Shown: positions 14,594 through 52,323 of the stretch, piece by piece
How positions within the stretch are numbered: position 1 is the stretch's first letter
How the letters are laid out: every line of letters begins with the position of its first letter
Source of the DNA: Vandiemenella viatica
Lineage: Eukaryota > Arthropoda > Insecta > Orthoptera > Morabidae
NCBI GenBank assembly: GCA_031002005.1
Contig: CM061919.1
Location: 19,725,687-19,789,686, forward strand
Direction of reading: 5' to 3'
Length of the DNA: 64,000 nucleotides
Position numbers and translations under genes: made by a program
The notes under the pieces: model-generated
Database searches by the model: none
Seen by the model: the letters and a program-made list of their open reading frames with translations, nothing else
What the model was told of the DNA's origin: nothing

Positions 14594-14599
14594 TACTAT
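14594..14599. repeat. Left 6-bp TSD (TACTAT) of the Polinton-like element
   Basis: TACTAT precedes the left terminus AGTAGTGTC and is repeated at 22095-22100 after the right terminus. Six-base duplications are the Polinton/Maverick signature. Confidence 0.8.
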
Positions 14600-15169
14600 A
14601 GTAGTGTCTGAAGGCGGGTGCGTTGCCAGTTTTTTCCCCATGTATTTCTTATGGGCGCGGGTGCGTTGCCAGTTTTCCCTTATGGACGCCGGTGTGAGCC
14701 CAGGACCACCCACGTCGCAACGGACGCAGGTGTGAGCCTGGCCACGTGCCACGCAAGTGTGCGCCTCTGCCACGTGCCACGCAGGTGCGCTCTAGTCATA
14801 ATTCGTCTAAATGTCACGCGGTCAGAGTACTAAACCTCAAATTCAATTCGAAATGCGGTAAAATATTCACTTTTTCTTTTTATCGGTTCAATACTAGTGT
14901 TGTGACGTATCGATTAGTATCTAAATTTTCTCACTATTATAATGGAGTTTATTTAATTTAATTTGGAGAACTGGTTCAGAAGATACAGAATTTACCATTT
15001 TAGCTGACTAGGCCCGCGTGGTGGAAAGTAAATTAACCCGCGACCCCTCATTAATCAGCTGCCGCGCCGACACGCGCAGGCCCGAGGGAGGTGGTACCTA
15101 TTAATCAGCCGTGACACCTGCACCCGGAAGACATTATTCAACCTCCACGGTATTTTACGATTGCGGGCG

Positions 15170-15385
15170 CAGTTTTCCCACACAAGCGTGTATATAAATC
15201 TAAAACATTTAGAAATGGAGATTAATGCCGCAAAGCACTGCGTTCCCACACCAAATGCTTCCCACGCTAGCAGAGGCTAACATTTTAATGGAGATTAATG
15301 TCGCAAAGCGTGTGTTCCCACGCCAGGAAGATTCCAAGCGTGTATAAATAGGGCTGAGATCCCCCTTGTGTTATCCAGTCTTCTC
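15170..15385 (+). promoter_or_regulatory. Duplicated promoter module with TATA box, left arm
   Basis: TATAAATA lies at 15343-15350, about 70 bases before the ATG at 15419. A TCCAGTCTTC initiator-like stretch follows about 30 bases downstream. Upstream, ATGGAGATTAATG(C/T)CGCAAAGC occurs twice (15215 and 15288), each followed by GTTCCCAC. A second TATA-like TATATAAAT stands at about 15191. The mirrored module is present in the right arm. Confidence 0.6.
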
Positions 15386-15418
15386 TGAGTCGCCGAGCTG
15401 AACACAACGATCATCTCA

Positions 15419-17293
15419 ATGTCGTCTGAGGATCTTGGAGGAATGAGCTTACTCAGCGATATTGGAAAGTAAATTATTGTTATTTAACTTGTTTTCTGGC
15501 TGTTTTAAATTCTTTCACATATACTGATGGGTTTCTTTTCTGCTTCAGACATTCAAGAAATTATCGCTGAGGGCCAGGATGATTTCGGAAATGATAATTT
15601 TTTTAACGTAACTAGATTTATGAAAATGTATAATGCTGAAGCAGTAGTCTATATTATTAATTTATTTGTTCGCAGGTGATTTGGATATTTCCTGCAGCGA
15701 CCTTTTTTTATTTCAGTATGTATTTATCTATAGATTATTTTTTTTCCATGTCTTTATAACTATTGCTAATACATTTTTTTTTTAGATGAACCATCACGCC
15801 CAGAGAAGCGTAAGGGTAATTCTTCTCAGGAATTAAGTAGCCCAAAAAGAGCTAATATCAGACCTGGCGATTGCTCTAACCCAATGATTGAGCCACAGAG
15901 CAGTATGCTGCCAACTCCACCACTACAATGGGTTCTTCCGCAACCAACAGCACACTGGAATATCGGTAAGTCCAGTACATCAGTAATTTACATATATTAT
16001 TTTATGCTTACAAAATTATGTTTTTCATGATACTAAAACATTTTTTCTTCTTTTTTTATGTTTCAGAGGGGGCGGTCGGCCGCCCGGCCAACGAGGCAGT
16101 TCCGACACCAATATGTCGACCATGGGAGAGATCAGCCACAGTCGGACCTAGCCGAACGCCCGCCACAGCAGCAGCAGCAGCCGGGCCCACCAGCCCATCG
16201 CCCGGGTCCAGCCGCCACTTCACCAGCCCATCGTCAGGATCCAGCCGCCACTTCAACAGCCCATCGCCCAGGCCAAGTCGACAGTATGCGCGACCCATCG
16301 CCGGGACCCAGCCGACAGTATGCCGGTCCATCAGCCGGGTCAAGCCGACAGTATGCAGGTCCATCGCCCGGGTCCAGCCACCAGTTCAACAGCCCATCGC
16401 CGCGGCCCAGCCGACAGTATACCGGTCCATCCGCCGGGTCAAGCCTCCAGCTCACCGGTCCTTTGCCAGGGCCAAGTCGGCAGATCGTCGGTTCAGGGAC
16501 GCCATCATGCAGTCATAATAAGGCAGCAACGATGGGTGAGTAAGCAGTATCTCGCTAAGTCCTTGAAGACAGGCTTAGTGCATTTAAAAAAAAAGAATTT
16601 AATCCGGGACAATTTCAAATTCTCCAAATTTCATTCATCCAATGAATTTCATTGACGCTTGCTTTAAACTTGTTACCGGTAAAATTCGCGAAATTGTGGA
16701 TAATCAGTCCTCCCCATCCGTAAAGGTGCAGGTTGGACTGATTAACACATATAAAATACAGAAGGAAATGATTTTAGATACCGCCCGTATGTGCTTTTTA
16801 ACTAAAATGCGTGAGGTCACAACCAGCATTTGCCGGTCGGATTGGTTTGAATAATATGTGAAGTCGGAGCTCAGAGTAAAATTGTGTGAGTTTCAAGAAA
16901 GGATAAGTGGCAAAACTCTCGATAGGATAGAATCCCTCGACATTAGCATTTCTAATTTTCAACCTTTCTATCAGGGGTCTTCCTATATCGCTCTGCCAAT
17001 TGATATCTGTAGAAAAAAAGGCCGTCATCAATGTTGAAAACAATAATGACGAGTTGTGCTTTCTATGGACAATTCTTGCTTATCACGTAAAGGCGCTAAA
17101 AAAAACCTACAACGGTTAGCATATATAAGAAAGTACGTTCACTCTACCCCCTCGATTTATCAGGTATTGAGTTTCCGGTAAAACTCTCAGAAATTTCTAA
17201 ATTTGAGAGGCAAAATCCAGACTATTCTGTAAATGTTTTCGGTCTAGATGAAATTAAAGGTAAACATGTAGTTTCCGGGGCCCTCCATCACAC
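15419..17293 (+). pseudogene. Left-arm copy of the 5' half of the PolB-linked gene, with putative introns
   Basis: A short first exon starts at the ATG 15419-15421. Likely splice signals follow: donor GTAAAT at 15469, acceptor ...TTCAG at 15548, acceptor TTCGCAG near 15676, donor GTATGT near 15717, acceptor TTTTAG near 15785, donor GTAAGT near 15966, acceptor TTTCAG near 16066. The exon at about 15786-15965 reads EPSRPEKRKGNSSQELSS, with a basic nuclear-localisation-like patch. The next exon is a proline, serine and glutamine-rich repeat region (PGPSRQYAGPS-like units). From 16642 follows a segment starting NFIDACFKLV, then the amino-terminal part of the polymerase protein, with stops. Exon phases do not all join cleanly. 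The copy stops at 17293, where the core begins. Confidence 0.55.
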
Positions 17294-20200
17294 GGTGCTA
17301 TTCCCAGACGTGTCGAACTCCTCCCTGTTGCGTCGCATCACTTCATATGGATCACAGTTCCGCACCAAGTAGATGAAGCTGTCTGTATCCATATATAGCA
17401 ATTTAGGGCTTCTAAACTGTGGAATGGCAAATTCATAATAAAATCTGTACATCCTCAGTTTAGACAGGTCAAGAAAGCACATTCCGACATACACAGGTTT
17501 ATTAAAAACTATCCTAGTTTTCGCCATCTCCATGGCCATAAAGTTCTTGTTGAAAACTGTAACTTGCTTAAAGTGTGGTGAAGCTATGTGTTTGTGGGCA
17601 CCGCGCCGCCCACCTATGCTGTACACAATTTCACGTAGCGGTGTTTTCGAATGTTCTACATAGTTTTACCGAAAATTGAATTGTTAATTAATTTATAAAA
17701 ATCTCTCTCGAAATCTGTTTTGGCGTCACGGCGAGACCACGTATTGAGAGATATGTATTCGTTCAACCACGGTGACTGGTTGAAAGATATTACCCGGTGT
17801 ATTTCGGTCACCCGCAGCCCCAAGCCTACACATTGCTGGAGGACTCGGTAATGGAGAACATACCGTACCTTGTTCTCCAGTGTGGTCATCAGCTTGGGAA
17901 GGGTAGAACCTTCTGGGGCTTAGTGGTCTGGACATGGCGGCATGTCTGCTAAAACGTCGGGTTTATCCTGAGGAATCGTAAGGTCTACCTCCAATACGAA
18001 CCCCCTATGTGAGTCAGCTGCAACGCTCATGAAATTTATGCTAGCAATCTCTTTAGCCGATAGCCATTGAAACCCACTAGAGGGTAGATACTCCGACATG
18101 GCCCAGCCGTAAAGATTGTTTACGTCGAAGTACATTATAAAATCTTCAGACGCCTCGCGGTTGTACTCCGGCATGTACCGGATATTTTCCTTCGCATACC
18201 TGTGAACACACTGGCAAATACCTCCGCGAATACCTCGTTCGAAAAAGAGCAGCATGTCGATATCCGTCAGAAGGTCCAGTTCGACACGCGTGCTCCTTAA
18301 CATAGCCTGCCACGAAATGCCTGGGGATGTGAAATAGTTTGCGGGGTCCAGGGTGTACTTCCCAAAACATACACTCCTAAATTTCTCAAACAGATGTGCA
18401 AGTAACCACACATCTGTGTCCATGTACAGACTTGCATATTCGCCCAAAGTCTTGATCTGGAATGTTCGCAATACCTTTGTCGCGTGTTCGTAGTCTTCAT
18501 CAGAAATGTGTGACTCCGACAACGAACTGTAGAATTTTGATTTTGGAGGAAGCGTGGCCTCGGTGAGCTTATCCCACGAATCCATGTATTCGTAAGGGAA
18601 GACCCCTTTCCGTTTAACTAATTGGAACATCTCGGGGTAGGTGAAATGAGCACTAGTAATGCGCATGTCGCCGTCCTCAAGGGTTCCAACCAGTTTATCT
18701 AATGGGAGCTGCATGAACCGGTATGAGTCCAGAAACCTTAACGTTATTGAAGTGTATTCGATCTTTTTCGAAAAAGAAATATAACGTTCTGTGTTGATGG
18801 GAAGCACGACCATCCCTTCGGAATCGAGTTTCGATAAAGCCATAACAATGAAATGAGCATCATACCCAGATAGATTGTGAAAGAAAATGGGTATGTACTT
18901 TTTAGTCTTATACTGCAAATTGCAATCATTATGTGCAGCGCCCCAAAATTCACCTGTGATATGACAATGATCGCGGACCTTGACGGTCCCCGGTTCAAAT
19001 TCTTTCTCGCAGATGTGGCATACCGTAGCATCAACAAACTTTGCTTTTTACCCACCATCATTACAAGAGGAATGCACTTCTTGTAAATTTTATCAACATT
19101 CCTGGCAAGTTTGACGAGATCGTCCACAAGCCATTTTTCAGGATTTTTTCCCGTGAAGGAGTTGAAACGCGACAGACTAGGTACGCGTGGACAAACGACC
19201 TGGTATGCGGCAGCGAACGGGACATGTTTCTGGACAAAAGTAGTGTGAGAGGCGTTGGGTGGAGGACTGCAAGAATCATAAGGTTGCAATAAACTTTCAA
19301 AGTCCGCGTAAACGACGACGGGTACACGCTGCTAGTGCACAAAATCCTTAAACTTCAAGGTTTTATCGTCGTCGCCAGGTAAATCCACTCTTACAAGATC
19401 TACCCTTGCACAGTCAATCTCGTGACGGTCCAGGAGATCTTTGCGTCAGAAATGTTGCAGACATCTGTCACAAATAAAAATTGCACTCTTATGCAAACTT
19501 AAAGAAGAACTGACTAACGCCGACAAGTTGTGAATCCAACAGTAATGGAATTTTTTCCCACTGCCGTCGGTAATCAACAACATGTTTATGTGGTGAACGC
19601 GTTTGTCTGCAGTGTGATGGAGGGTCCCGGAAACTACATGTTTACCTTTAACTTCATCCAGACCGAAAACATTTACAGAATAGTCTGGATTTTGCCTCTC
19701 AAATTTAGAAATTTCTGAGAGTTTTAATGGAAACTCAATACCTGATAAATAGAGGAGGTAGAGTGAACGTACTTTCTTATACATGCTAACCCGTTTAGGT
19801 ATTTTTTAGCGCCTTTACGTTATATGCAAGAATTGTCCATAGAAAGCACAACTCGTCATTCTTGTTTCAACATTGATGACGGCATTCTTTCTACAGATAT
19901 CAAGTGGCAGAGCGACATAGGAAGACCCCCGATAGAAAGGTTGAAAATTAGAAATGCTAATGTCGAGGGATTCTATCCTATCGAGAGTTTTGCCACTTGT
20001 CCTTTTTTGAAACTCACACAATTTTACTTTGAGCTCCGACTTCACATATTTTTTCATACCAATCAGACAGGCAAGTGGTGGTTGTGCCCTCACGCATTTT
20101 AGTTAAAAAGCTCATACGGGCGGTTTCTAAAATCATTTCCTTCTGTATTTTATATGTGTTAATCAGTCCAACCTGCACCTTTACAGATGGGGACGACCGA

Positions 20201-21347
20201 TTATCCACAATTTCGCGAAGTTTACCGGCAACAAGTTTAAAGCAAGCGTCAATGAATTTCATTGGATGAATGAAATTTGGAGAATTTGAAATTGTCCCGG
20301 AATAAATTCTTTTCTTAAATGCACTAAGCCCGGCCGATGGACCGGCATACTGTCGGCTGGGTCCCGGGTGTGGGCTGTTGAACTGGCGGCTGGACCCGGG
20401 CGATGGACCGGCATACTGTTTGCTTGACCCGGCTGATGGACCGGAATACTGTCGGCTGTGTCCCGGCGATGGGTCGGCATACTGTCGATTTGAGCCGGGC
20501 GATGTGCTGTTGAAGTGGCGGCTGGAGCCGGGCGATGGGGTGGTGAATTTTCGGCCGGACCCGGGCGATGGGCTGGTAGGCCCGGCTGCTGCTGCAGCTG
20601 TGGCGGGTGGTCGGCTAGGTCCGACTGTGGCTGACGTCTACCATGGTCGCCATATTGGTGCGGAACTGCCTCGTTGGCCGGGCGTCCATCCACCCCCTCT
20701 GAAACATAAGAAAAGAAGAAAAAATGTTTTAGTATCATGAAAAACATAATTTTGTAAGCATAAAATAATATAGGTATATTACTGATGTACTTGACTTGCC
20801 GATATTCCAGTGTGCTGGTGGTTGCGGAAGAACCCTTTGTGGTGGTGGAGTTGGCAGCATACTGCTCTGCGGCTCATTCATTGGGTTAGAGCAATCGCCA
20901 GGGCTGATATTAGCTCTTTTTGGGCTACTTAATTCCTGAGAAGAATTACAATTACGCTTCTCTGGGCGTGATGGTTCATCTGTAAAAAAAAATGTATTAG
21001 CAATAGTTATAAAGACATTGAAAAAAAATGATCTATAGATAAATACGTACTGAAATAAAAAAGGTCGATGCAGGAAATATCCAAATCACCTGCGAACAAA
21101 TAAATTAATAATATAGACTACTGCTTCAGCACTAAACATTTTCATAAATCTAGTTACGTCAAAAAAATTATCATTACCGATATCATCCTGGCCCTCAGCG
21201 AGAATTTCTTCAATGTCTGAAGCAGAAAAAAAAACCCATCAGTATATGTGAAAGAATTTAAAACAGCCAGAAAACAAGTTAAATAACAATAATTTACTTT
21301 TCAATATCGCTGAATAAGCTCATTCCTCCAAGATCCACAGACGACAT
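17288..21347 (-). pseudogene. Protein-primed family B DNA polymerase pseudogene (Polinton/adintovirus type)
   Basis: Read on the minus strand, a promoter and spliced proline-rich 5' part (21347 to about 20280) lead into the polymerase. Motifs seen: exonuclease I YADFES (about 19310-19293), a CHIC zinc-knuckle-like pair near 19020, exonuclease II NLSGYD (18876-18859), an exonuclease III-like YMDTD (about 18426), motif A DVNNLYG (18129-18106), motif [11 protein letters not shown] (17694-17665) and motif C YMDTDS (17395-17378). The metal-binding residues are present, but the gene is broken: stops at 19446-19448, 19332-19334, 17920-17922 and 17656-17658, frame changes near 20080, 19045 and 17640. 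The C-terminus is missing because the left inverted arm begins about 85 bases after motif C. The product would have copied the element's linear DNA from protein-primed ends. Confidence 0.85.
20259..20747 (-). pseudogene. Proline-rich repeat exon, right arm
   Basis: This exon-like frame has repeated short units such as HRPGPAATS and PVHQPGQANS, followed by a frame change into the KFIDACFKLV segment. Its acceptor AG lies at the start of EGVDGRPANEAV. The equivalent left-arm exon (16067-16543) has an extra base that moves the second part into another frame. Low-complexity P/Q/S-rich extensions suggest a flexible linker. I do not recognise a family. Confidence 0.5.
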
Positions 21348-21394
21348 TGCGATGATTGTTGTGTTCAGCTCGGCGGCTTAGAGAAGACTGGATA

Positions 21395-21600
21395 ACACAA
21401 GGGGGATCTCAGTCCTATTTATACACGCTTGGAATCTCCCTGGCGTGGGAACACACGCTTTGCGACATTAATCTCCATTAAAATGTTAGCCTTTGCTAGC
21501 GTGGGAAGCGTTTGGTGTGGCAACGATATGCCTTGCGGCATTAATCTCCATTTCTAAATGTTTTAGATTTATATACACGCTCGCGTGGGAAAATGGCGCC
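21395..21600 (-). promoter_or_regulatory. Promoter module with TATA box, right arm
   Basis: Inverted copy of the left-arm module: TATAAATA reads on the minus strand at about 21417-21424, upstream of an ATG whose first base is 21347. Confidence 0.6.
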
Positions 21601-22094
21601 CGCAATCGTAAAATACCGTGTAGGTTTAATAATGTCTTCCGGGTGCAGGTGTCACGGCTGATTAATAGGTACCGCCTCCCTCGGGCCTGCGCGTATCGGC
21701 GCGGCGGCTGATTAATGCGGGGTCGCGTCTCATTTACATTCCACCACGCGGGCCTAGTCAGCTAAAATGTTAAATTCTGTATCTTCTGAACCAGTACTCC
21801 GAATTAAATGAAATAAACGCCATTATAATAGTGAGAAAATTTAGATACTAATCGATACGTCACACCCCTTGTATTGAACTGATAAAAAGAAAAAGTGAAT
21901 ATTATACCGCATTTCGAATTGAATTTGAGGTTTAGTACTCTGACCGCGTGACATTTAGACGAATTATGACTAGAGCGCACCTGCGTGGCACGTGGCCACG
22001 CGCACACCTGCGTCCGCTGCGACGTGGGTGGTCCTGGGCTCACACCGGCGTCCATAAGGGAAAACTGGCAACGCACCCGCCTTCAGACACTTCT

Positions 22095-22100
22095 TACTAT
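22095..22100. repeat. Right 6-bp TSD (TACTAT) of the Polinton-like element
   Basis: Identical to 14594-14599 and directly abuts the right terminus GACACTTCT. Confidence 0.8.
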
Positions 22101-30947: not shown

Positions 30948-32187
30948 ACTTCCTCGCGTAACGGTTACAGATGACCAACTGACTACTGGCGCTGATTAAA
31001 CAAATAAGCAAAGATGGGCAAAAGCTATCTACACACTTTAAATTAAACTAAACACAGAAGGCACTTCCTGTCGTGACGGTTGCTGAAGACCAACTGTCTA
31101 CTGGCGCTGTTAAATAAGCAAAGATTAACCAAAAGCTATCTACACACTTTAAATTAAACTAAACACAGAGAGCACTTCCTGGCGTGACGGTTGCTGGAGA
31201 CCAACTGTCTACTGGCGCTGTTAAATAAGCAAATGTTAAACAAAAGCTATCTACAAACTTTAACGAAACTAAACACAGTACTTCCTGGCGTGACGGTTGC
31301 TGAAGACCAACTGACTACTGGCGCTGTTAAATAAGCAAAGATTAAACAAAAGCTATCTACACACTTTAAATTAAACTAAACACAGAGAGCACTTCCTGGC
31401 GTGACGGTTGCTGAAGACCAACTGACTACTGGCGCTGTTAAATAAGCAAAGATTAAACAAAAGCTATCTACACACTTTAAATTAAACTAAACACAGAGAG
31501 CACTTCCTGGCGTGACGGTTGCTGAAGACCAACTGTCTACTGGCGCTGTTAAATAAGCAAATTAAACAAAAGCTATCTACACACTTTAAATTAAACTAAA
31601 CACAGAGAGCACTTCCTGGCGTGACGGTTGCTGAAGACCAACTGACTACTGGCGCTGTTAAATAAGCAAAGATTAAACAAAAGCTATCTACACACTTTAA
31701 ATTAAACTAAACACAGAGAGCACTTCCTGGCGTGACGGTTGCTGAAGACCAACTGTCTACTGGCGCTGTTAAATAAGCAAAGATTAACAAAAGCTATCTA
31801 CACACTTTAAATTAAACTAAACACAGAGAGCACTTCCTGGCGTGACGGTTGCTGAAGACCAACTGTCTACTGGCGCTGTTAAATAAGCAAAGATTAAACA
31901 AAAGCTATCTACACACTTTAAATTAAACTAAACACAGAGAGCACTTCCTGGCGTGACGGTTGCTGAAGACCAACTGACTACTGGCGCTGTTAAATAAGCA
32001 AAGATTAAACAAAAGCTATCTACACACTTTAAATTAAACTAAACACAGAGAGCACTTCCTGGCGTGACGGTTGCTGAAGACCAACTGACTACTGGCGCTG
32101 TTAAATAAGCAAAGATTAACAAAAGCTATCTACACACTTTAAATTAAACTAAACACAGAGAGCACTTCCTGGCGTGACGGTTGCTTT
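30948..32187 (-). repeat. Tandem array, ~111-bp monomers, 5' UTR of the CR1-type LINE
   Basis: The plus-strand landmark acttcctggcgtgacgg recurs at 30948, 31063, 31174, 31280, 31391, 31502, 31611, 31722, 31832, 31943, 32054 and 32164, mostly every 109-111 bases. There are eleven full units and a 24-base partial unit at the outer edge. Units differ by small changes (for example gactactgg versus tctactgg). The unit next to ORF1 is the most diverged. The array ends exactly at the junction with the older LINE, so it belongs to the inserted LINE. Confidence 0.9.
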
Positions 32188-33469: not shown

Positions 33470-35220
33470 AATCAAATTAGCTCCAGGACTACTATAGATT
33501 ATTTGCACTCAATCTAATTTTCTTGCCATACATCTTGGTTATTCGAGTCTTTCAAATCATCTATCCAATTTCATTAAATTATTCCTCATGTATTTATTAC
33601 TTCAGATTCTGGCCCAAACACTGGCGGCCTAAAATTATAAAGCACCATAATTTTTTTAAAACTCTGGTGGATTCGTTATATAATTTATTTTTGAAATCCT
33701 ATATTGACTGAGGACAAAAACTGCACAAAATAATCCCAAGGAGTAAGCCCGTGCATGAAAGAATAATATAGCTTGTACTCAAACTGAATCAAGATCGTAC
33801 GTTCTAACAATTGAAACACTGTGGAAATATGAAAATTTTCTGTAATTTCACCCATTACCTCATTTGATTTTAGATACCAGTTTAACGAGTTACCATCATT
33901 ATATTATCATAAAAAGCGAAACTCCAATACTCAATCCGTAATTTCTTGATTTCAAATTATTTGAGGCGATAAACAAGATAATAAATTGTTTTGCGCCCCT
34001 TTTTTAGATAATTATACAAACTTATAATAACTGTATTTTATAAATTTCCATTATGCTGTATGTAAGATTAATGACACTTGTGCGTGAGCAGTCATGTACT
34101 TCCTCCGCTCTACTCCTCACGAGGACATACTGTGTCTTAGTGAGATGTGTAAACCAGCCTCGCATAACTCCGCATAGAGCATTCAGTGGGCAGTGTCCAT
34201 AGGAGTCTTTGTCTTCCGACATTTACTCCTAGTTTTTATGATGCGTTAAGGTTTCGTTTTAGGTTTGTCTAAGAGTTATGGCGTGGTTTGTTGTGACCAG
34301 AGGTGTTTATTATTTAGTACCTGGGTGACCGATCTTCGCTCGGCATCTTTCGATTTCTGTTCGGTATGAAGATTTCATCATGTTTGTGAGAATTTAATTT
34401 TGTCTGTTTACAAGAGTTACACATGTAATAGTATCATATTCAATAGATTTAATACCTATACAGTATAAAAACCTAACCCAAGGTTGGTTGGTCCTCCAGA
34501 CGGAAACATACTAAGTCGTGAATCAGAGGTAGGACGGGCAGTTCCTTTCCTCTGGGACATACAATTTAGATTTTACATATTTTAATCATTTTTTTGCGAT
34601 TTTAATGAAATTTTCGAGATATATAGGATTTTCATTCTTCTTACTGATACTGTGTATTTTTTCAAAAAATTTTGTTTCTCTTTTGCTCCATGTGATGCTC
34701 GATACATGGTTCTATTTCTCTGACTAGTGCCAGGATATATATATACATATATATGGTGTCCGTGTATGTCACCCATCTTCGTTAAATGCAAACAGCTTTC
34801 CATGTCGAAGTCATCTTCTATGTCGGTATACACTCTGTCATCATCTTTGATCAATAACTCTGAGCTCTATGATGCATACATATGTAGCTGACATGCTCTG
34901 ACTGATCTACCGTTATGGTAAAGTTAAGTGTGTGTTGGCTCTGCGAGTTATTCTAGAGACCACCATGTAAGCTCAAACAGTTAATTCATACAAGTTCCGA
35001 TTTTCGAAAAACATGAACTTACGAAACCAAACAATAAAATATATTTATTCATATGATAGTCACATAGCACTTTATTAGCTAAAATGTCCACAAAATCTGT
35101 ATAGTTTGTTGAAACTAGGTAGCCCCAGTTCTTCTTCTTGACGGCCAAGGCGCCGGTTACTGCGGGCTGCGCGCTGATGAGGTTCCTCCTAAACGAATCA
35201 CCGTTGGTAGGATAATATTT
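33470..35220. other. AT-rich non-coding stretch
   Basis: No recognised gene. A short TA-rich microsatellite lies at 34737-34756. Open frames at 34582-34854 and 34981-35232 (minus) show no known motif. Confidence 0.35.
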
Positions 35221-40500: not shown

Positions 40501-41627
40501 GGCTTTTGTCGGAATTCCAGATCATAACTTATGATTCAAACGATGGATATGCATAATTCTTTTTGTGTTTTGTTCCTATTTCCCCGAAATGGAAATAACT
40601 TAATAAAATGTTTGCTGTTAAAAAAATTGGAATTTGTAGCATGTCTCTGTTACTATGCCATCAAAGTATTTAAAATCTATAGGTGACACCGTCACATCCA
40701 TTCTAGTGCCGATGGTTGTACAGGGAGCTTTACCTTCGTGAATCCTATGGGATGCGTCAGGAGCTGTCGGAACCCCGTGACCTTTACCTTTACCTTACAT
40801 ATAACCCTAAAAAGCAGAAAATAATAATAATAAAATAAAAAATACATTTTAATGTACCATGTTTTTATAACGGACTAAACAGTATATAATTTCCCTAATC
40901 CTTATGAAGGATAAAACCACATACTGATTTCTAACTTCTTCTAAATTATCATCAAAATTTATACTTGAAAAATTTTAATAGCTATTAAAATACTTATAAG
41001 AAAAACTTTGGGTGCATGGAATACATATCTATATGAGTAGTGTTGTAATAAGAGAGCTGGCGCACCGCCAGCTGGAAGCACCGTCGGTGTGGTGGGGTGA
41101 CCTCCGTGATGTCACAAGATGGTGGACCGTTAGTTCCTTGACCGGCCGCCCAGATGGCAGCATCTCCCAAGGGCTTAATTTCTTTGGGTGCAGACATTCC
41201 ACTCACCCAGGAGAGTGAAAGCTATCGGGGAAATTCCACCGCTCTGGGCGTGTTTACACAGGTGCACTAGCCTGCAACTATTTCCTCAAACAAGGGATAT
41301 TGCTGTTCTGGAATGCGGACGTCAGACAAGTTTCTACACGACGTGCTGTAGTAGGGTATCGTGGCGACAAAACTATGGATTCGTCTACAACTGTAGTTCC
41401 TAGTGGCCATTCCACGTGTGTTGCGTATACCAATTCCACCTTTAGCGAGCAACTTATATATAATTAAAGTCTTATCTTCGAGGAGTTTAAATGGACCCAT
41501 TGGTTTAAGTAGAAAATGGACGATTAGTTCATCCATTAATCGGGAAATCGAGTATGAAGGTCTCCATGATGGCCCGATTCCAAATGGCTATTTCGGTTCG
41601 GGAATGCGGAAGTTGCGACAGGTGTCG

Positions 41628-41860
41628 ACTTGCTCGGCTGAGGCATCGGGTGCTCGACTGCCGAGTTCTGGTATCGCCTTCGGGAGGACGGCGGTTCGAA
41701 TCGACATCCAGGCATCCATGGTTTCCCCAAATCACTCCAGGTGAATGCCGGGTGCTTCCTTCAAAAGGACATGGCCGAATTCCTTCCCATTCCTAGCCCC
41801 CCATCCGTTCCCCGTCTCTAAAGACCACATTGTTAGAGAGACGTTAAGCAGTTAAAAAAA
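41628..41860 (+). mobile_element. tRNA-derived SINE in the left arm
   Basis: The head has CTGAGGCATCGGGTGC (A-box-like) and GGCGGTTCGAATCG (B box). The body has ccatggtttccccaaatcac and ggccgaattccttccc, and the copy ends in a run of nine A's. Its inverted copy is at 51176-51410. Confidence 0.7.
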
Positions 41861-43069
41861 AATCGACTGCCGTGTTGCAAAGCATCCCGGTTTCCGGTAG
41901 ATGGCGCGGCATGCATTACTTCTCAACGTGATAGGTATTTACCAATGCTTTTAAGAGAAATATTTCAGGTATTCCTCCCTCCTGTCTGTCTGCTATTATC
42001 GGTATATCAATGTGACAAGTATTTCGAAACCATGGAGTTATTCTCGGCGTGAAGTAACATTATTTCCGTTTGCCCACCGACAAGCAGAGTACATTAGCTC
42101 TTGCGAAAGCTCTGTACACATACTATCGATAGCTAGGTGCAAATATTTCAGCACAGTAAAATATTTTCTTCGGTTCTGTGTCATGATTTTGTGAAATATA
42201 CTTCCATTTGATTAAGCGTGAACCATTGCTATTTTTTACAAAAAACAATAGAAGTCCACATTAGCGGATATTACCTACAGAACATTTCTGTTCCCATGTT
42301 ACCCTGTTATTATAGAGCAAAGCACATACTATTAATCAGTAGGATTACTATACTGTACAGCAATATTTTATATACCTTATTTTCCTCCAACTTAGTGGCC
42401 AAGAATTATAGAATATTTCACACATCTCCAATGATACCTTAAATCACATTTATTAATATATTTTTTTTACATGTGAAGTTACAGTGAGTTTATTCCTTGA
42501 CAGCTTTATCAGTCCCTGGCTTTACCCTCTAATGCCTGATCATAGTCCTCTATCCCCCACCATTTTCTATATAGTGCTCCTAATTAAAAATTCATTCATA
42601 TACCGAAAACATACTCACTTTTGCACATCATATCGGATTCGTTATGAACCAATATAATAGCTAACAGCATTAACGATAGCTCACGAATTTTGGCTAGATT
42701 TCCACATTTTAAAGGATGTATTAAATTAGGTGCAATGAAACAGAGCGAGAACCAACCCAATTTTTAAACTCAGAGGCATTGAAGGGGTTTACAGATGTAT
42801 TTAAGTATAACCTCGATGAATCTTAAGCAAAGTTGTCGATTTGAAAACCAGTTTCTTTCCCTACAGACATTTCTGAAGTGAATACATGTTAATCTCTCCA
42901 CTGATATCAGCCAGTAATTTTTTCCAGCCTGTTTCTCAACCCTGTCTTTGGACAAGAGCCCACTTGAAAATATTTCTGACATGATTAACAAAGCCTATCC
43001 CACACCATGCCTGCAAAAATCAATGTTTCCATTTTGACCATGGCAAAATTCATGGGATGGAACGGAGGA

Positions 43070-43265
43070 AAAAGAATTCATCTAAGCATCAGTACGACAC
43101 CTTATTTCTCTAACTTATCTCTACTGCCTTTGGTATAAAAAATTTCATCACACTCGTAATTTTTTCGAGCAAGTTCAAACATATGTAATCTGTCTACCCA
43201 GATCAATCTATGTATCAATTCTATTATGCTTTCGTAATCAATCACAAATTGAGTGTCCTTAGCTT
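43070..43265 (-). mobile_element. CR1-type LINE 3' fragment, left arm
   Basis: Resembles 27110-27300 of the CR1-type LINE (catcagtacgacaccttatt; ttcatcacactcgtaa). The mirror copy is at about 49765-49960. Confidence 0.6.
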
Positions 43266-43647
43266 TACTTTGTCTAAAAATTCAATCCCTTGTGACACAT
43301 CAGTGATTGAATAGAAACAGAGAGATATACGTTGTGGTATGTACTTACCCACCTTTCAACTGTATTTTACAGCACAGCACGTATGTTCCAGGAAAGAAAT
43401 ACTGTCTGTTAATCTTAACAATTTCACCCCTGTGGAATCCAAGTACGCCAGTACTATGTGACAAAAATCGAGTTAGTGTAAGGCAGTTCTAAGCACAGAA
43501 CCTGCTGATTCGTCATAGAATGCCTGTGGCCAAGGTGTGATATAGAAATTTTTTTCCGCTCCCTTATGGAAGAAATCCAGGGCCGGCTCCTACTGATAAT
43601 CTTTTACGCACTATTCCTAATTCTTTCACCAAGATCCACCCCTAGTC

Positions 43648-44105
43648 TCATCGCCAACATACGTCCAGCACTCCCTCAAACCTCCTTCTGTTTCCCAATG
43701 ATTCCAAATCCAACCCCTGTTCTGTTACTGACAGGGTTACCTTTTGTTCGTGCGTTAAAGTAAACCAAAAATTCAAAATTCGTAGTCTTCTCCTAATCAG
43801 TAGCCAGATACCAAAATGTTCACTTAAGGTGGTTCTATTGCAGTTTTCCAAGAAAATTCTCCCTTTTCCCAGGAAAGTATTTTTCAACCAATCAGGACCC
43901 AGGAGAGTTCTCCATTCGGTTTAAATGTTCCCATCTGACGCCAAAGTTCGGATTCAGGACCAAGTGTGTCATTTGTTTGTAATTGCAAGCTTTGTTCAAG
44001 TAACCACGATAAAGTTACCATAACGCTCTCAGCTATCTTGGTCATCAAACTGATATCATAACCCACATTTTCATAGAAGACCCCCACACATCGACAAGTA
44101 TCCAA
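43648..44105 (-). other. Paired unknown open frames, left arm
   Basis: Two abutting minus-strand frames: 43884-44105 (73 residues) and 43648-43887 (79 residues), overlapping by four bases. The same pair exists in the right arm (48926-49147 and 49144-49383, plus strand) with one residue difference each. They match no family I know. Conservation only reflects recent duplication, so coding status is doubtful. Confidence 0.25.
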
Positions 44106-44397
44106 AAAGTCACCATAGGTGCAGACACTAGTTTTATTACGCCGAAGATAGCACCTACACTTGAACTGTCGTAAATTGTTAGGTCAAGATGGGTGTTTGG
44201 ATATTTTACCCACCTAGGCCTCATCGCCTAAAGTCTAATGCCAGATTGAGGTCATTGCCAACTTAGGCTCCATAGACCACTCAGAATTATTCCACCAATA
44301 TCCATTCTAACAGCATTATACGCCACATACAGCCCCCAACACTCTTCCTATCTTCCAGTGACATCCATCCCAGCTCCTTTATTATGTCGTTTATTGA

Positions 44398-44671
44398 CAA
44401 CAACCAGCCCAATCAAGGCGACGATAAAGTGGGTAGAACCCCCATGGCTCATAACTGACCAAAAATCATCACATCAATATCATCTCATTTATCTCACACT
44501 ACAGACCTCACTACCATCCAGCATCATATGTGCTAGGTACAAAACTGTTCACATCAGCACCGCCACGTCTATCTTTTCTGCCATTCAGTAACATGTACCC
44601 ATGGTACCACGAGTAGCAGTAGACATCTGGTTATCAGACAGATATCATAACTCCCGTATTCATACTAGGTC
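44398..44671 (+). repeat. Second inverted match adjoining the left arm
   Basis: Reverse complement of 47311-47599. The right-side partner is separated from the right arm by about 1 kb that the left side lacks, so the left copy has an internal deletion at 44397/44398. Confidence 0.8.
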
Positions 44672-44689
44672 CCTTCCTCACTCTGGACG

Positions 44690-45020
44690 CGTACATCGTG
44701 TTTTTGTAGGTCAGTATACCGGCACATATTGCCGCCTTGAGCGCAATGAAATTCCGGTCTTCAGTGTGGTCCTAAAAATGCAATACCGGTAATAGGTTCC
44801 GGTCTGAATACTTCGGTAAACCATCCCGGTCCGCGCTTTAGACCGGTGTATTGCGATATTTCTGTCCGCAGTGGGGAATGGAGGCCCCCTCTCGCCCCGC
44901 CCGCCCTCCTGGGAAGGTTGACCCAAAATTTGTCTTTGATGAGCTGCTATTAACAAATGACTTTTCGTCAAACATTGCCAAGTGCTTAGTTCCAGCCACC
45001 AGCTAAACTGATGGCACATT
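44690..45020. other. CCGGT-rich block in the spacer
   Basis: Six (A/T/C)CCGG(T/C) motifs occur within about 130 bases (44718-44848), followed by a GC-rich stretch (44870-44925). It may be the end of an unidentified DNA transposon. Confidence 0.3.
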
Positions 45021-45879
45021 AAAAATCAAGTACGTGTGGTGAGCACTGAGTTGTATTGTAAAGACATGCTATCGTCTGCCTATCATGTAACACCTCAGTG
45101 TGGACGTCGTGTGTCGGATCCCTTTCCTGCAAATACTTGTATATATGTGGTAACTTATCAAATTGTGGTATATGCCTGGACATATGTGTATGTGCGTGTT
45201 CCTGTGTGGTTATGTGTGTAATTATGGTGATAGAAGTCTACTTGAGATTTCTCTATCAGTGGCCACCTATGTAGATGTAATCAGTTGGGTGTGATGATCA
45301 CCGAGATTTGTGGCAAAGAAATGAAACATTTCGCACATCCTGTAACTATTCAGTCGCGACCTAGGGTGTTCAGTCCTTTTCCTCCAGTTACGTCTATGGA
45401 GACTGTGTGTTTGCATGGAGATGTGAGTGTGTGTATGCGTGTCTTTCTATGTGGTTGTGTGTCTATCACGATACGATTATACTCGACTTTGAGATTTCAC
45501 AATGACTGGCTAACTAAATGTTGATGGAACATGTAATTAATTGGGTGTAATGAATAATCCGTATGGGATAAGTACTGAGGTGTATGGCAAAAACATGTCA
45601 TCCTTTGCACACTCTCTACCGCCTGTCTCATGGTTTTTTGGTCAGTTATGTTTGTGTGTGGTGACGTATGGATTAGTGTGTGAGACCTAGTATGAGTATG
45701 GGAGTTATGATATTCGTCTGATGACCATGTGTCTACTGATACTCGTGGTACGTGGGGCAAATATTACTTGTAGTGTCCACACAGAAATGGCCAGCGTGGT
45801 GCGTTTACAAACCAGCTTTGCAGAGGTTGCGCTTTCTTCGGATGAGCACAGTTTTCGTCTCATACAGGCAATTATGCCT

Positions 45880-46290
45880 ACAAGGTGCAATTTTTGTCCA
45901 TATGTGGGGACGAGGTCTGGCGACGAGCACCGCGGCTGGAGTCGGCCCTGTCAGCCGACCCTGCCGTAACACAGATGGCAACGCACAGGTTCCCTGCCCT
46001 TCACTGGAGCTGCAACAGCGTGGGTGGTACTGACCCCCGATACCAGATGGCAAGTGCTGGGGGATGGGCTGAGCAGGCCGTCCCAAGGTCGGCGACTGAG
46101 AGTGGTCGCTGGGGTGACGCATCCCCGGCACTGGAGAGCGAGACGGGAGACGGTTCGGCGGTGGCCATATTGGAGTTATGGACGGAGGAGACCAAGCTGG
46201 GACTGTGAACCGCACACGGCCATCACTGCAGTAAACAACGATTGCGGTAATTCTGCAGCAAATTCGTCGGATGTTCACAATAATTAGCCC
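45880..46290. other. GC-rich island in AT-rich repeats
   Basis: 45905-46215 is strongly GC-rich compared with its surroundings and open in several frames on both strands (for example 45805-46278 minus, 45885-46208 plus). No recognised domain. It could be a CpG-rich exon or promoter carried in from elsewhere, or the 5' end of a retroelement. Confidence 0.4.
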
Positions 46291-47310
46291 GGAACAAACA
46301 CCCTGGTCAACTCATTGCTCGTTCATTGTTTGTATTTTCCAAGTTTTCACTGTAGTAATTAGTAAATAAACTTATCGATTCCCTGTTCTGTTAAAGAGGT
46401 CAATATATGTAAAATCTGAGCTATGCTACCTTTGTTTATTATCAATATATCTTTCATTTCAATTCATGTTAACGTAATCCTGAAAATAACGTGTCATGTT
46501 GACTAATGCTAGAGATCAAGAAACAATTTATTTAAAATACCCAACATTGGTTGTTATATACTGAGTAGCAGAAAAGGCTTGTGGCGTGGGATAGAGGTGG
46601 TGCTGCTCATGTGAACAGTTTTGTACATATTACCAACGATACTGAATGGTAGAGAGGTCTGTAGTGTGGGTTAAATGATATGATGTTGATGTGAGGAGTT
46701 TGGTACTTGAAACACATGTTAATGATGATTTTTTTGTCAGTCTTGAGTCATGGGGGTTCTGTCAAACTTTTTCTTTGCAATGATTGGGCTGGTTGTTGTG
46801 TTGAGCTCGTTGTAGTCATGGAAATATGCGTCTGTGTGCGTCTTTCTCTGTGTCTGTATGCGTAAGTATGGTAATACCTTTCTTAAAACTCGTCTATATG
46901 GATGTATGAATTGTTGTTCTTCCCATATATTTGTGCTTGTGTGGAGACGTATGGATTTGTGGGTGAGACCTAGTATGAAAATGGAGATTATGATATCTGT
47001 CTGATAGACAAGTGTGTGGCGATGAATGGAACTGTGTAAATATATTGACATGTGAGTGTGTGTGTATGTGTGTCTTTCTATGATTTTTGGCCAGTCATGG
47101 GTGTTCTGTTCCACTTTTTCGTTGCCATGATTGGGCTAGTTGTTGAGTCTTGATCGCTATAGGTATAGAAATGTACGTGTGTATGCGTCTCTATCTCTAT
47201 GTTCATTTTATTTATTTTTTCCGTAAATGTGGTGATACCTTCCTTTAACTCGTATGTCTGGATGTATGACACTTAGGCTTGTGTGAGGTGACGTATGGCT
47301 TTGTGTTTGA

Positions 47311-47599
47311 GACCTAGTATGAATATGGGAGTTATGATATCTGTCTGATAACCAGATGTCTACTGCTACTCGTGGTACCATGGGTACATGTTACAGAATT
47401 GCAGAAAAGACTTAGGTGTGGGATAGACGTGGCGGTGCTGATGTAAACAGTTTTGAACCTAGCACACATGATGCTGGATGGTAGTGAGGTCTGTAGTGTG
47501 AGAAAAATGAGATGATATTGATGTAATGATATTTTGGTCAGTTATGAGCCATGGGGGTTCTACCCACTTTATCGTCGCCTTGATTGGGCTGGTTGTTGT
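47311..47599 (-). repeat. Partner of the 44398-44671 inverted match
   Basis: Matches in inverted orientation from gacctagtatgaat to gggctggttgttg. It is also one unit of the decayed tandem repeat of this region. Confidence 0.8.
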
Positions 47600-48483
47600 G
47601 TCTAGCTCGCTTTAGGGATGGAAATGTGAGTGTTTGTGTGTCTCTCTCTTTGTCTGTATGCGTAAATGTGGTGATACCTTCCATAAACATGTCTGTCTGG
47701 AAGTATGATTTTGCTGTCCCACCACTTACGTTTGTTTGTGCTTGTGTATGGAGATGCATGGATTTGTGGCTGAGACCTAGTTTGCATATGTGGGTTATGA
47801 TATATGTCTGATAGTCAAGTGTCTATTGGAACGCATGGTACTTGGGTCACTTTTTACTGAATGGTAGAAAGGGTTGCAGTGTGGGAGAGACATGTTGATG
47901 GTAAATGTAATCAATTTGGTGTGATGAACACTATTTATGGTATAAACACTTAGGTGTATGGTTAAAACATGCCTTCTTTTGCACACCTTCTATCTCACTA
48001 GGCTGATGATATGTAAGGAGACTTCTGTTTCTCAGCCAGTCATGATGCAAGAGAGTACTACACCACTTTTTTGTTTCCATTATTGGTGCCGGTAGTTGTG
48101 CTGAACTCTCTGTAGACTTGGACATGTGTATCTGCGTCTCTCTTTGTGCATGTAAGCGTAAGTTGGTGAAACATTCCTTTAACTCGTCAGTCTGATGATT
48201 TTTGTAACGATAGTTCTGTGCAGTTAATCAGTGGTAACGGCAATTCTGCCCCACTTCATCGTTTCGGCGATGCCTGCTGGTAGTTCTGTCAACCTCGCTG
48301 TATGAATGTACAAGTGTGTGCGTGTGTCATTCCTCTGTGGATTTGAGTCTAAAATATATGGTTATAGAATTATGCTCACCATCAACGTGTGCTTCTGCAG
48401 TTTGTGTTGGCATACGAATTGTGTTTCTCAAGTTTTTCACTACATGTACTTCGGGGTAAAAATCATTTAACAGAGAGGGTGAT

Positions 48484-48744
48484 GAGGGTATGTACCAGAG
48501 AAACGAAGGACTTGGGTACAAACTCACAGTCAGACCATTGCTTCTATATAGAAGTGTAGTATGGAGTCCACATTTTTTGTACATCAAATGCAAGGTGCAA
48601 AGGAGGGCAGCTAGATTTATCAGTGGAAAATATTCAATAAACGACATAATAAAGGAGCTGGGATGGATGTCACTGGAAGATAGGAAGAGTGTTGGGGGCT
48701 GTATGTGGCGTATAATGCTGTTAGAATGGATATTGGTGGAATAA
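48484..48744 (+). pseudogene. LINE RT tail fragment
   Basis: EGLGYKLTVRPLLLYRSVVW, KVQRRAARFISGKYS and DIIKELGWMSLEDRK match the RT tail of the older LINE at 26512-26844. The right inverted arm begins inside this fragment. The left arm holds only its last part. Confidence 0.75.
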
Positions 48745-48925
48745 TTCTGAGTGGTCTATGGAGCCTAAGTTGGCAATGACCTCAATCTGGCATTAGACTT
48801 TAGGCGATGAGGCCTAGGTGGGTAAAATATCCAAACACCCATCTTGACCTAACAATTTACAACAGTTCAAGTGTAGGTGCTATCTTCGGCGTAATAAAAC
48901 TAGTGTCGGCACCTATTGTGACTTT

Positions 48926-49383
48926 TTGGATACTTGTCGATGTGTGGGGGTCTTCTATGAAAATGTGGGTTATGATATCAGTTTGATGACCAAGATAGCT
49001 AAGAGCGTTATGGTAACTTTATCGTGGTTACTTGAACAAAGCTTGCAATTACAAACAAATGACACACTTGGTCCTGAATCCGAACTTTGGCGTCAGATGG
49101 GAACATTTAAACCGAATGGAGAACTCTCCTGGGTCCTGATTGGTTGAAAAATACTTTCCTGGGAAAAGGGAGAATTTTCTTGGAAAACTGCAATAGAACC
49201 ACCTTAAGTGAACATTTTGGTATCTGGCTACTGATTAGGAGAAGACTACGAATTTTGAATTTTTGGTTTACTTTAACGCACGAACAAAAGGTAACCCTGT
49301 CAGTAACAGAACAGGGGTTGGATTTGGAATCATTGGGAAACAGAAGGAGGTTTGAGGGAGTGCTGGGCGTATGTTGGCGATGA
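48926..49383 (+). other. Paired unknown open frames, right arm
   Basis: Mirror copies of the frames at 43648-44105. The first contains GYDISLMTKIAKSVMV, the second RTTLSEHFGIWLLIRRRL. No recognised domain. Confidence 0.25.
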
Positions 49384-49764
49384 GACTAGGGGTGGATCTT
49401 GGTGAAAGAATTAGGAATAGTGCGTAAAAGATTATCAGTAGGAGCCGGCCCTGGATTTCTTCCATAAGGGAGCGGAAAAATTTTCTATATCACACGTTGG
49501 CCACAGGCATTCTATGACGAATCAGCAGGTTCTGTGCTTAGAACTGTCTTACACTAACTCGATTTTTGTCACATAGTACTGGCGTACTTGGATTCCACAG
49601 GGGTGAAATTGTTAAGATTAACAGACAGTATTTCTTTCCTGGAACATACGTGCTGTGCTGTAAAATACAGTTGAAAGGTGGGTAAGTACATACCACAACG
49701 TATATCTCTCTGTTTCTATTCAATCACTGATGTGTCACAAGGGATTGAATTTTTAGACAAAGTA

Positions 49765-49960
49765 AAGCTAAGGACACTCAATTTGTGATTGATTACGAAA
49801 GCATAATAGAATTGATACATAGATTGATCTGGGTAGACAGATTACATATGTATGAACTTGCTCGAAAAAATTACGAGTGTGATGAAATTTTTTATACCAA
49901 AGGCAGCAGAGATAAGTTAGAGAATTAAGGTGTCGTAGTGATGCTTATATGAATTCTTTT
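49765..49960 (+). mobile_element. CR1-type LINE 3' fragment, right arm
   Basis: Inverted counterpart of 43070-43265. Confidence 0.6.
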
Positions 49961-51175
49961 TCCTTCGTTCCATCCCATGAGTTTTGCCATGGTCAAAATG
50001 GAAACATTGATTTTTCCAGGCATGGTGTGGGATAGGCTTTGTTAATCATGTCAGAAATATTTTCAAGTGGGCTCTTGTCCAAAGACAGGGTTGAGAAACA
50101 GGCTGGAAAAAATTACTGGCTGATATCAGTGGAGAGATTAACATGTATTCACTTCAGAAATGTCTGTAGGGAAAGAAACTGGTTTTCAAATCGACAACTT
50201 TGCTTAAGATTCACCGATGTTATACTTAAATACATCAGTAAACCCCTTCAATGCCTCTGAGTTTAAAAATTCGGTTGGTTCTCGCTCTGTTTCATTGCAC
50301 CTAATTTAATACATCCTTTAAAATGTGGAAATCTAGCCAAAATTCGTGAGCTATCGTTAATGCTGTTAGCTATTATATTGGTTCATAACGAATCCGATAT
50401 GATGTGCATAAGTGAGTATGTTTTCGGTATATGAATGAATTTTTAATTAGGAGCACTATATAGAAAATGGTGGGGGATAGAGGACTATGATCAGGCATTA
50501 GAGGGTAAAGCCAGGGACTGATAAAGCTGTCAAGGAATAAACTCACTGTAACTTCACATGTAAAAAAAATAATATTAATAAATGTGATTTAAAGGTATCA
50601 TTGGAGATGTGTGAAATATTCTATAATTCTTGGCCACTAAGTTGGAGGAAAATAAGGTATATAAAATATTGCTGTACAGTATAGTAATCCTACTGATTAA
50701 TAGTATGTGCTTTGCTCTATAATAACAGGGTAACATGGGAACAGAAATGTTCTGTAGGTAATATCCGCTAATGTGGACTTCTATTGTTTTTTGTAAAAAA
50801 TAGCAATGGTTCACGCTTAATCAAATGGAAGTATATTTCACAAAATCATGACACAGAACCGAAGAAAATATTTTACTGTGCTGAAATATTTGCACCTAGC
50901 TATCGATAGTATGTGTACAGAGCTTTCGCAAGAGCTAATGTACTCTGCTTGTCGCTGGGCAAACGGAAATAATGTTACTTCACGCCGAGAATAACTCCAT
51001 GGTTTCGAAATACTTGTCACATTGATATACCGATAATAGCAGACAAACAGGAGGGAGGAATACCTGAAATATTTCTCTTAAAAGCTTGGAAAATACCTAT
51101 CACGTTGAGAAGTAATGCATGCCGCGCCATCTACCGGAAACCGGGATGCTTTGCAACACGGCAGTCGAATTTTTT

Positions 51176-51410
51176 TTAACTGCTTAACGTCTCTCTAACA
51201 ATGTGGTCTTTAGAGACGGGGAACGGATGGGGGGCTAGGAATGGGAAGGAATTCGGCCATGTCCTTTTGAAGGAAGCACCCGGCATTCACCTGGAGTGAT
51301 TTGAGGAAACCATGGATGCCTGGATGTCGATTCGAACCGCCGTCTTCCCGAATGCGATGCCAGAACTCGGCAGTCGAGCGCCCGATGCCTCGGCCGAGCA
51401 AGTCGAAACG
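51176..51410 (-). mobile_element. tRNA-derived SINE in the right arm
   Basis: Inverted copy of 41628-41860 at the mirror position, with a T-run at its left edge, so the SINE was there before the duplication. Confidence 0.7.
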
Positions 51411-52323
51411 TGTCGCAACGTCCGCATTCCAGAACAGAAATAGCCATTTGGATTCGGGCCATCATGGAGACCTTCATACTCGATTTCCCGATTAATGGAT
51501 GAACTAATCGTCCATTTTCTACTTAAACCAATGGATCCATTTAAACTCCTCGAAGATAAGACTTTAATTATATTTAAGTTGCTCACTAAAGGTGGAATTG
51601 GTATACGCAACACACGTGGAATGGCCACTAGGAATTAAAGTGGTAGACGAATCCATAGTTTTGTCGCCACGATACCCTACTACTGCACGTCGTGTAGAAA
51701 CTTGTCTGACGTCCGCATTCCAGAACAGAAATATCCCTTGGTTGAGGAAATAGTTGCAGGCTAGCGCACCTGTGTAAACACGCCCTGAGCGGTGGAATTT
51801 CCCCGCTAGCTTTCACTCTCTTGGGTGAGTGGAATGTCTGCACCCAAAGAAATTAAGCCCGTGGGAGATGCTGCCATCTGGGCGGCCGGTCAAGGAACTA
51901 ACGGTCCACCATCTTGTGACGTCACGGAGGTCCCCCCACCACACCGACGGTGCTGCCACCTGGCGGTGCACCAGCTCTCTTATTACAACACTACTTATAT
52001 GAAGTGTAGAGATTAGTCATCAATGAATGAATTAATTTATCCCTTCACATTATTTGCGGTGCAATAAAATTGTTAGTAGAGCTATTAATGTATCAATTAT
52101 CGGTTGAATGCTCCCAATGTTTGTCGTCACCAATCTTACAAGTATTTTAATAGATATCAAAATTTTCAAGGTATAAATTTTCAGGACAATTTAGAAGAAG
52201 TTAGAAATCTGTATTTGGTTTTACCCTTCATAAGGATTAGGGATATTATTATATACTGTTTAGCCCGTTATAAAAACATGGTACATTAAAAAGTATTTTT
52301 TATTTTATTATTATTATCTATTT

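Follow-up and report, generated by a model that had tools for sequence, protein, structure and literature searches.

Mirror-image Polinton derivatives in the Vandiemenella viatica genome and their probable origin by fold-back replication

A 64,000-nucleotide (nt) stretch of the genome of the orthopteran Vandiemenella viatica (assembly GCA_031002005.1, contig CM061919.1, positions 19,725,687 to 19,789,686 of the forward strand), hereafter referred to as the window, contains at 14600-22094 an element in which one terminus is present twice, in inverted orientation, and the other terminus is absent, as in a snapback genome. This anatomy is not due to chance, and the element is not a one-off but belongs to a class with many members. 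It is probably a Polinton derivative of a palindromic, i.e., mirror-image, class that arose by fold-back replication and subsequently integrated. Its assignment as a Polinton derivative, already proposed in an earlier reading of the letters alone (the sequence-only reading), is supported by the polymerase domain PF03175, the structure of the ends, and relatives carrying Polinton genes.

The element is flanked by the target duplication TACTAT at 14594-14599 and 22095-22100 and has AGTAGTG-type termini with AG...CT inverted ends; the left border reads TACTAT followed by AGTAGTGTCTGAAGG, and the right border reads CCTTCAGACACTTCT followed by TACTAT. The left arm (14600-17293, plus strand, 2.7 kilobases (kb)) is an inverted copy of the right arm (19612-22094, minus strand, 2.5 kb), and each comprises the terminal repeat, an arm gene, and the 5′ region of the polymerase gene; the right arm runs on into the core, as it likewise does in 19 relatives. 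The sequence-only reading had given the ends, the duplication, and the coordinates and lengths of the inverted arms correctly, and its view that the element was inserted as a unit is borne out by the duplication. Briefly, the ten longest ungapped arm blocks (I1-I10) pair 14657-17293 with 19612-22080 at 89-96% complementarity, and the terminal 34 nt of the element pair at 97%. Global alignment of the arms yields 152 mismatches and 217 gap columns over 2480 aligned positions, and the Kimura two-parameter distance is approximately 0.059 upon exclusion of a 33-bp (11-codon) tandem repeat located at 16188-16483 on the plus strand of the left arm and at 20329-20577 on the minus strand of the right arm. 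Because the arms differ at 152 of 2480 positions, the mirror image is old and is not a simple read artefact.

The core (17294-19611, minus strand) comprises a piece of a family-B DNA polymerase gene, of which the 3′ end is missing and the frame is broken into several pieces. The longest open piece (17920-19047, minus strand, 375 amino acids) matches PF03175 in Pfam (E=1.2e-14); the same domain is detected in 17656-17919 under the curated cut-off (E=4e-4), as is an endonuclease-VII-like piece of the polymerase under the Pfam cut-off. Among the 120 listed of 4628 matches to the 375-residue piece, the named relatives are mostly from arthropods, the best being a grasshopper protein with 54% identity. 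With its polymerase frame in pieces, the window copy is dead and non-autonomous. No retroviral-type integrase, double jelly-roll (DJR) major capsid protein, or packaging ATPase was matched by Pfam in the ten reading frames of the window that were scanned; a scan for tRNA genes in the window detected none, and a PHROGs search returned matches only to polymerase, endonuclease, transposase, and unknown-function families.

The normal design from which this plan departs is provided by relatives in the same genome. The 3.72-Gb genome was searched with the core, and 40 of the 3533 first-look candidates were scored, which comprised the window and 39 others matching over the full length at 95-96% identity. 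Two full-length relatives extend beyond the polymerase, across further Polinton genes, as far as the same terminus: a 14.1-kb copy (C7729:132105431-132119531) with the duplication AGGGAC and a terminal repeat of approximately 0.6 kb, and a 12.8-kb copy (C4538:170768150-170780927) with the exact duplication TACACA, in which the 251 bases read at the beginning of one end match the other end. Long arms as the normal design are ruled out by the 0.6-kb terminal repeat of the former copy. Since both full-length relatives have shorter terminal repeats, the mirror plan is derived; a relative with equally long arms, the case named in the sequence-only reading as telling against its proposal, was not found in the two full-length copies read. 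With regard to gene content, Pfam detected an integrase core (PF00665, E=1e-15) and, under the cut-off, a chromodomain in locus L039, DJR capsid domains and a PLA2-like domain in L029, and an ATPase under the curated cut-off in L038; the DJR capsid family PF21738 was matched in relatives with E=3e-29 and 3e-72. A frame at L029:4631-5023 without a Pfam match is, judging by resemblance, a candidate adenovirus-like protease.

Palindromic relatives were found repeatedly in the sample. In the first 20 loci, for which 1.5 kb was read on each side, only in the window was the core flanked by an arm on either side. Four regions (E1-E4) were fetched because they contain two cores tail to tail. Twelve further loci were chosen from matches without a listed partner and read approximately 10 kb onwards; eight proved to be tail-to-tail fold-backs (E5-E12), two are full length (L029 and L038), and two, L035 (containing masked sequence) and L039, have no partner within approximately 10 kb. 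In the palindromic relatives read, the turning point comes before the capsid side is reached. In 13 of 20 loci, a 1-kb sequence, referred to as X, is joined to the integrase gene at a single shared position (L033:1536-2541 and its counterpart in 12 other loci), and most of those read further are palindromes. Sequence resembling X is also present at window 34570-34728 (84% match over 161 positions), and the centre of E11 contains a 75% relative of X. E4, E8, E9, E10, and E12 have a central loop of roughly 0.1 kb in common, the flank of E4 being mirrored on one side only, and another centre sequence is common to E3, E5, and E7, in E7 only in part. By end coordinates, E3, E4, E8, E10, and E12 span 14.1-15.0 kb, near the size of the 14.1-kb full-length relative, and the other palindromes are shorter; such sizes may be what a packaging limit would give.

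The turning points of E1 and E2 provide the evidence regarding mechanism. The turn of E2 lies on an 11-nt inverted repeat enclosing a 40-nt loop and made up of GCTGCAGATGG, where the short half ends, and CCATCTGCAGC, where the long half turns; outside E2, this repeat occurs 41 times in the fetched loci (overlapping loci counted apart), in every case unturned. E1 turns on GATAAACGGTATATTT/AAATATACCGTTTATC, a 16-nt repeat with one mismatch, an exact core of 10 nt, and a 65-nt loop. At the mismatched stem position, G is present in 39 of 41 matches, with overlapping loci again counted apart, and the matching A is present in the other two, i.e., both halves of E1, as if the mismatch had been copied or corrected. 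Within the 1.4 kb past the core there are two inverted repeats of at least 11 nt with a loop of at most 120 nt, versus 0.03 in base shuffles; one is that of E2, and the other is a 13-nt repeat at which no palindrome read turns. Copy-back is supported for the class because the turning points of E1 and E2 coincide exactly with inverted repeats, a different one in each, that the linear genome already contains, as would be expected of a self-priming strand.

Fold-back replication could accordingly be pictured in four steps. A strand begun at the polymerase-side end would stop early during extrachromosomal, protein-primed replication; its 3′ end would pair with a short inverted repeat on the same or another displaced strand and copy back to the terminal repeat; the resulting hairpin would be replicated into a palindrome of double length, each end of which bears the same terminus; and the integrase of a helper Polinton would insert this palindrome with a 6-bp duplication. 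The polymerase type and the location of the borders at the terminus lead us to infer extrachromosomal, protein-primed copying, and a helper would likewise have taken part.

Integration as a unit is recorded at the outer borders. Both ends were read for ten palindromes including the window element, and six have an exact 6-bp duplication (TACTAT in the window, ATCATT in E1, TTCATT in E4, ATGCTG in E6, CACCTA in E11, and TGGTGT in E12); the left end of E9 is masked, one candidate end was seen for E5, and none for E7. In palindromes for which both ends were read, the mirror image extends no further than the element terminus, and the host flanks differ. These borders bear on a chromosomal origin, in which breakage of an integrated Polinton was followed by folding back of the chromosome end (a fold-back inversion) or two inserted copies recombined. 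Short-hairpin-primed fold-back inversions are known in yeast, according to PMC7467729, and E10, chimeric in its two end types and lacking a duplication, would suit recombination; nevertheless, a chromosomal fold-back would mirror the host flank too, and together with the exact duplications in 6 of 10 this renders a chromosomal event quite improbable.

Several observations weigh against fold-back replication followed by integration as an account of the whole class. Loci were sampled by likeness to the window core or junction and from the polymerase side only, and the counts given here are therefore not genome-wide frequencies. No matching duplication is present at E2, E3, E8, and E10, four of the ten palindromes read at both ends, and E2 is a stem-turned case and yet lacks one. 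E10 has two ends of different types, one located by motif only, and its halves differ at 37 of 2309 positions; it therefore looks like a chimera. The nearest relative of E1 in the core tree is L020, which has the X join, and E1 may thus descend from an already palindromic genome. Furthermore, 25 of the 28 differences between the halves of E2, and 24 of the 37 between those of E10, are alleles found in other copies, a mixture that strict self-copying of one strand would not be expected to give. The window arms differ from each other by 5.7% (40/706) but from the nearest other copies by 5.1% and 4.6%; since those copies are a young group, the distances neither show nor exclude a common origin of the arms.

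The palindromes without a duplication, E10 aside, may have been misjoined in the assembly or may have recombined. An assembly artefact throughout, i.e., palindromic read chimeras or misjoined copies, is nonetheless very improbable. The lack of a duplication in four palindromes, of which one lies on a 30-kb contig and has halves differing at 2 positions plus 8 gap positions in 6133, and core copies often more than 98% alike would fit such an origin; the matching 6-bp duplications at the window element and five others, window arms approximately 6% apart, and the stem-defined turns of E1 and E2 would not.

In the ten palindromes with both cores read, the halves show a mean of 14.8 differences versus 29.5 upon random pairing, a value reached in 0 of 20000 shuffles. 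The mixed haplotypes of E2 and E10 would each be explained by copying back on another molecule, by later gene conversion, or by recombination, and they would also suit a pair of separate insertions, oppositely oriented and either nested or adjacent, between which the middle was later deleted. Such double insertion is highly improbable, given that the outer duplications match in 6 of 10 and that the close pairs among 38 core-side matches to the junction query comprise six tail-to-tail (one being E5), no head-to-head, and no direct pairs within 8 kb; moreover, the scan of L021-L051 places the terminus pattern at the outer ends, with weaker matches inside. The sequence-only reading had further held that the nascent strand switched to its own template; this is not demonstrated, the halves of E2 and E10 being of different haplotypes and the window arms being no closer mutually than to other copies.

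The window junction itself, 17293/17294, where the left arm meets the core, is of another kind. Polymerase sequence in L029 and L038 runs past the position of 17294, at which the inverted left arm starts in the window, confirming that this arm cuts the polymerase gene, as had been read from the window alone. The junction search suggested at that time was performed with a 200-base query (17194-17393), and 40 of 2467 candidates were scored: the window alone matches over the full length, and the other 39 cover one half. No stem or inverted repeat was found at the junction, and microhomology is at most 1 nt by eye; unlike those of E1 and E2, this turning point does not lie at self-complementary sequence and is thus not demonstrably a copy-back point. 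The copy-back origin put forward in the sequence-only reading is hence supported for the relatives E1 and E2, which turn on pre-existing inverted repeats, but not, in the form proposed, for 17293/17294. A comparable arrangement is seen in the asymmetric E6 and E7, in which central palindrome sequence is present on the long side only and the join overlap is approximately 1 nt by eye. Because E6 and E7 are similarly lopsided and still retain part of the palindrome centre, we lean, by analogy and with about even confidence, towards later loss of the palindrome centre as the origin of the window junction. Direct copy-back at this site, in which a strand terminating at 17294 moved to the position of 19612 with no stem involved and then copied back, leaving a 2.3-kb loop, is possible but rather doubtful. 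It would accommodate the window anatomy and a junction unique among the 40 scored matches, and yeast fold-backs are reported in PMC7467729 to have loops thousands of nt long; against it stand the lack of an inverted repeat, present in E1 and E2, and the equally stemless E6 and E7, which keep one side of the palindrome centre. The long half of the window element ends and the short half of E6 begins approximately 8 nt apart in the polymerase gene (window 17294 and L031 approximately 2349, by eye), which may be a hot spot or a coincidence.

A second palindrome is located at window 41036-51995 (10,960 bp), with AGTAGTG...CACTACT ends, the duplication TATATG, arms 98.2% identical over 3369 positions (3.37 kb), and a 4.2-kb loop. 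Eight of its reading frames have no Pfam match, and its only matches to the fetched loci are shorter than 170 bases and fall in flank sequence. This palindrome suggests that fold-back forms arose in non-autonomous elements with Polinton-type ends as well. Elsewhere in the window, a tandem array of a 111-bp unit in 11 copies with 95% matches occupies 30948-32185; the reading frames near it are, as we take it from their resemblance, reverse-transcriptase-like.

The palindromic Polintons could also be a self-sustaining parasite lineage, an idea advanced tentatively here. E4, E8, E9, E10, and E12, which share a loop, would have multiplied as palindromes of approximately helper size, retaining the polymerase gene and using the integrase and capsid of a full-length helper, with their halves kept alike because every round would include a single-stranded hairpin stage, a half-genome. 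In the literature searched, which covered part of the field, no paper on palindromic Polintons and no description of a hairpin half-genome replication cycle for Polintons was found. To our knowledge, Polinton replication has so far been inferred from gene content. Integrated fold-backs with stem-defined turns would represent a fossil record of strands that started at the terminus, stopped, and primed on themselves, through which the replication model becomes testable from sequence. The findings further suggest that the element spawns defective, possibly interfering derivatives, which are the commoner form in the sample read; large near-perfect palindromes are in addition a hazard for assembly and genome stability.

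Among known systems, the symmetric recombinants (SYREC) of adenovirus 12 carry one viral end and foreign DNA as a large palindrome and arose in cell culture; they resemble the relatives with X in the centre, although the present elements are fixed in a host genome. Polintons or Mavericks (polintoviruses, adintoviruses), as generally described in PMC6431247, are approached by the window element in its family-B polymerase and 6-bp duplication and by its same-genome relatives in an integrase core, a DJR capsid, and, weakly, a chromodomain and ATPase, whereas the element itself has no integrase or capsid match and carries one end twice. In snapback recombinant adeno-associated virus (AAV), according to PMC13422874, the genome folds back on internal complementarity, one end is present twice, as in the mirror-image Polintons, and the breakpoints are clustered, partly at foldable sites; AAV is a parvovirus with hairpin ends, whereas the present elements are integrated in the host with 6-bp duplications and would be protein-primed. 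In the yeast fold-back inversions of PMC7467729, short inverted repeats with loops prime copying back, with a hotspot at a 15-bp stem; those events are chromosomal and break-linked, whereas in the present elements the mirror image goes no further than their own terminus. The class is best regarded as Polinton derivatives of fold-back type, for which snapback AAV and hairpin-primed fold-back inversions provide mechanistic precedents.

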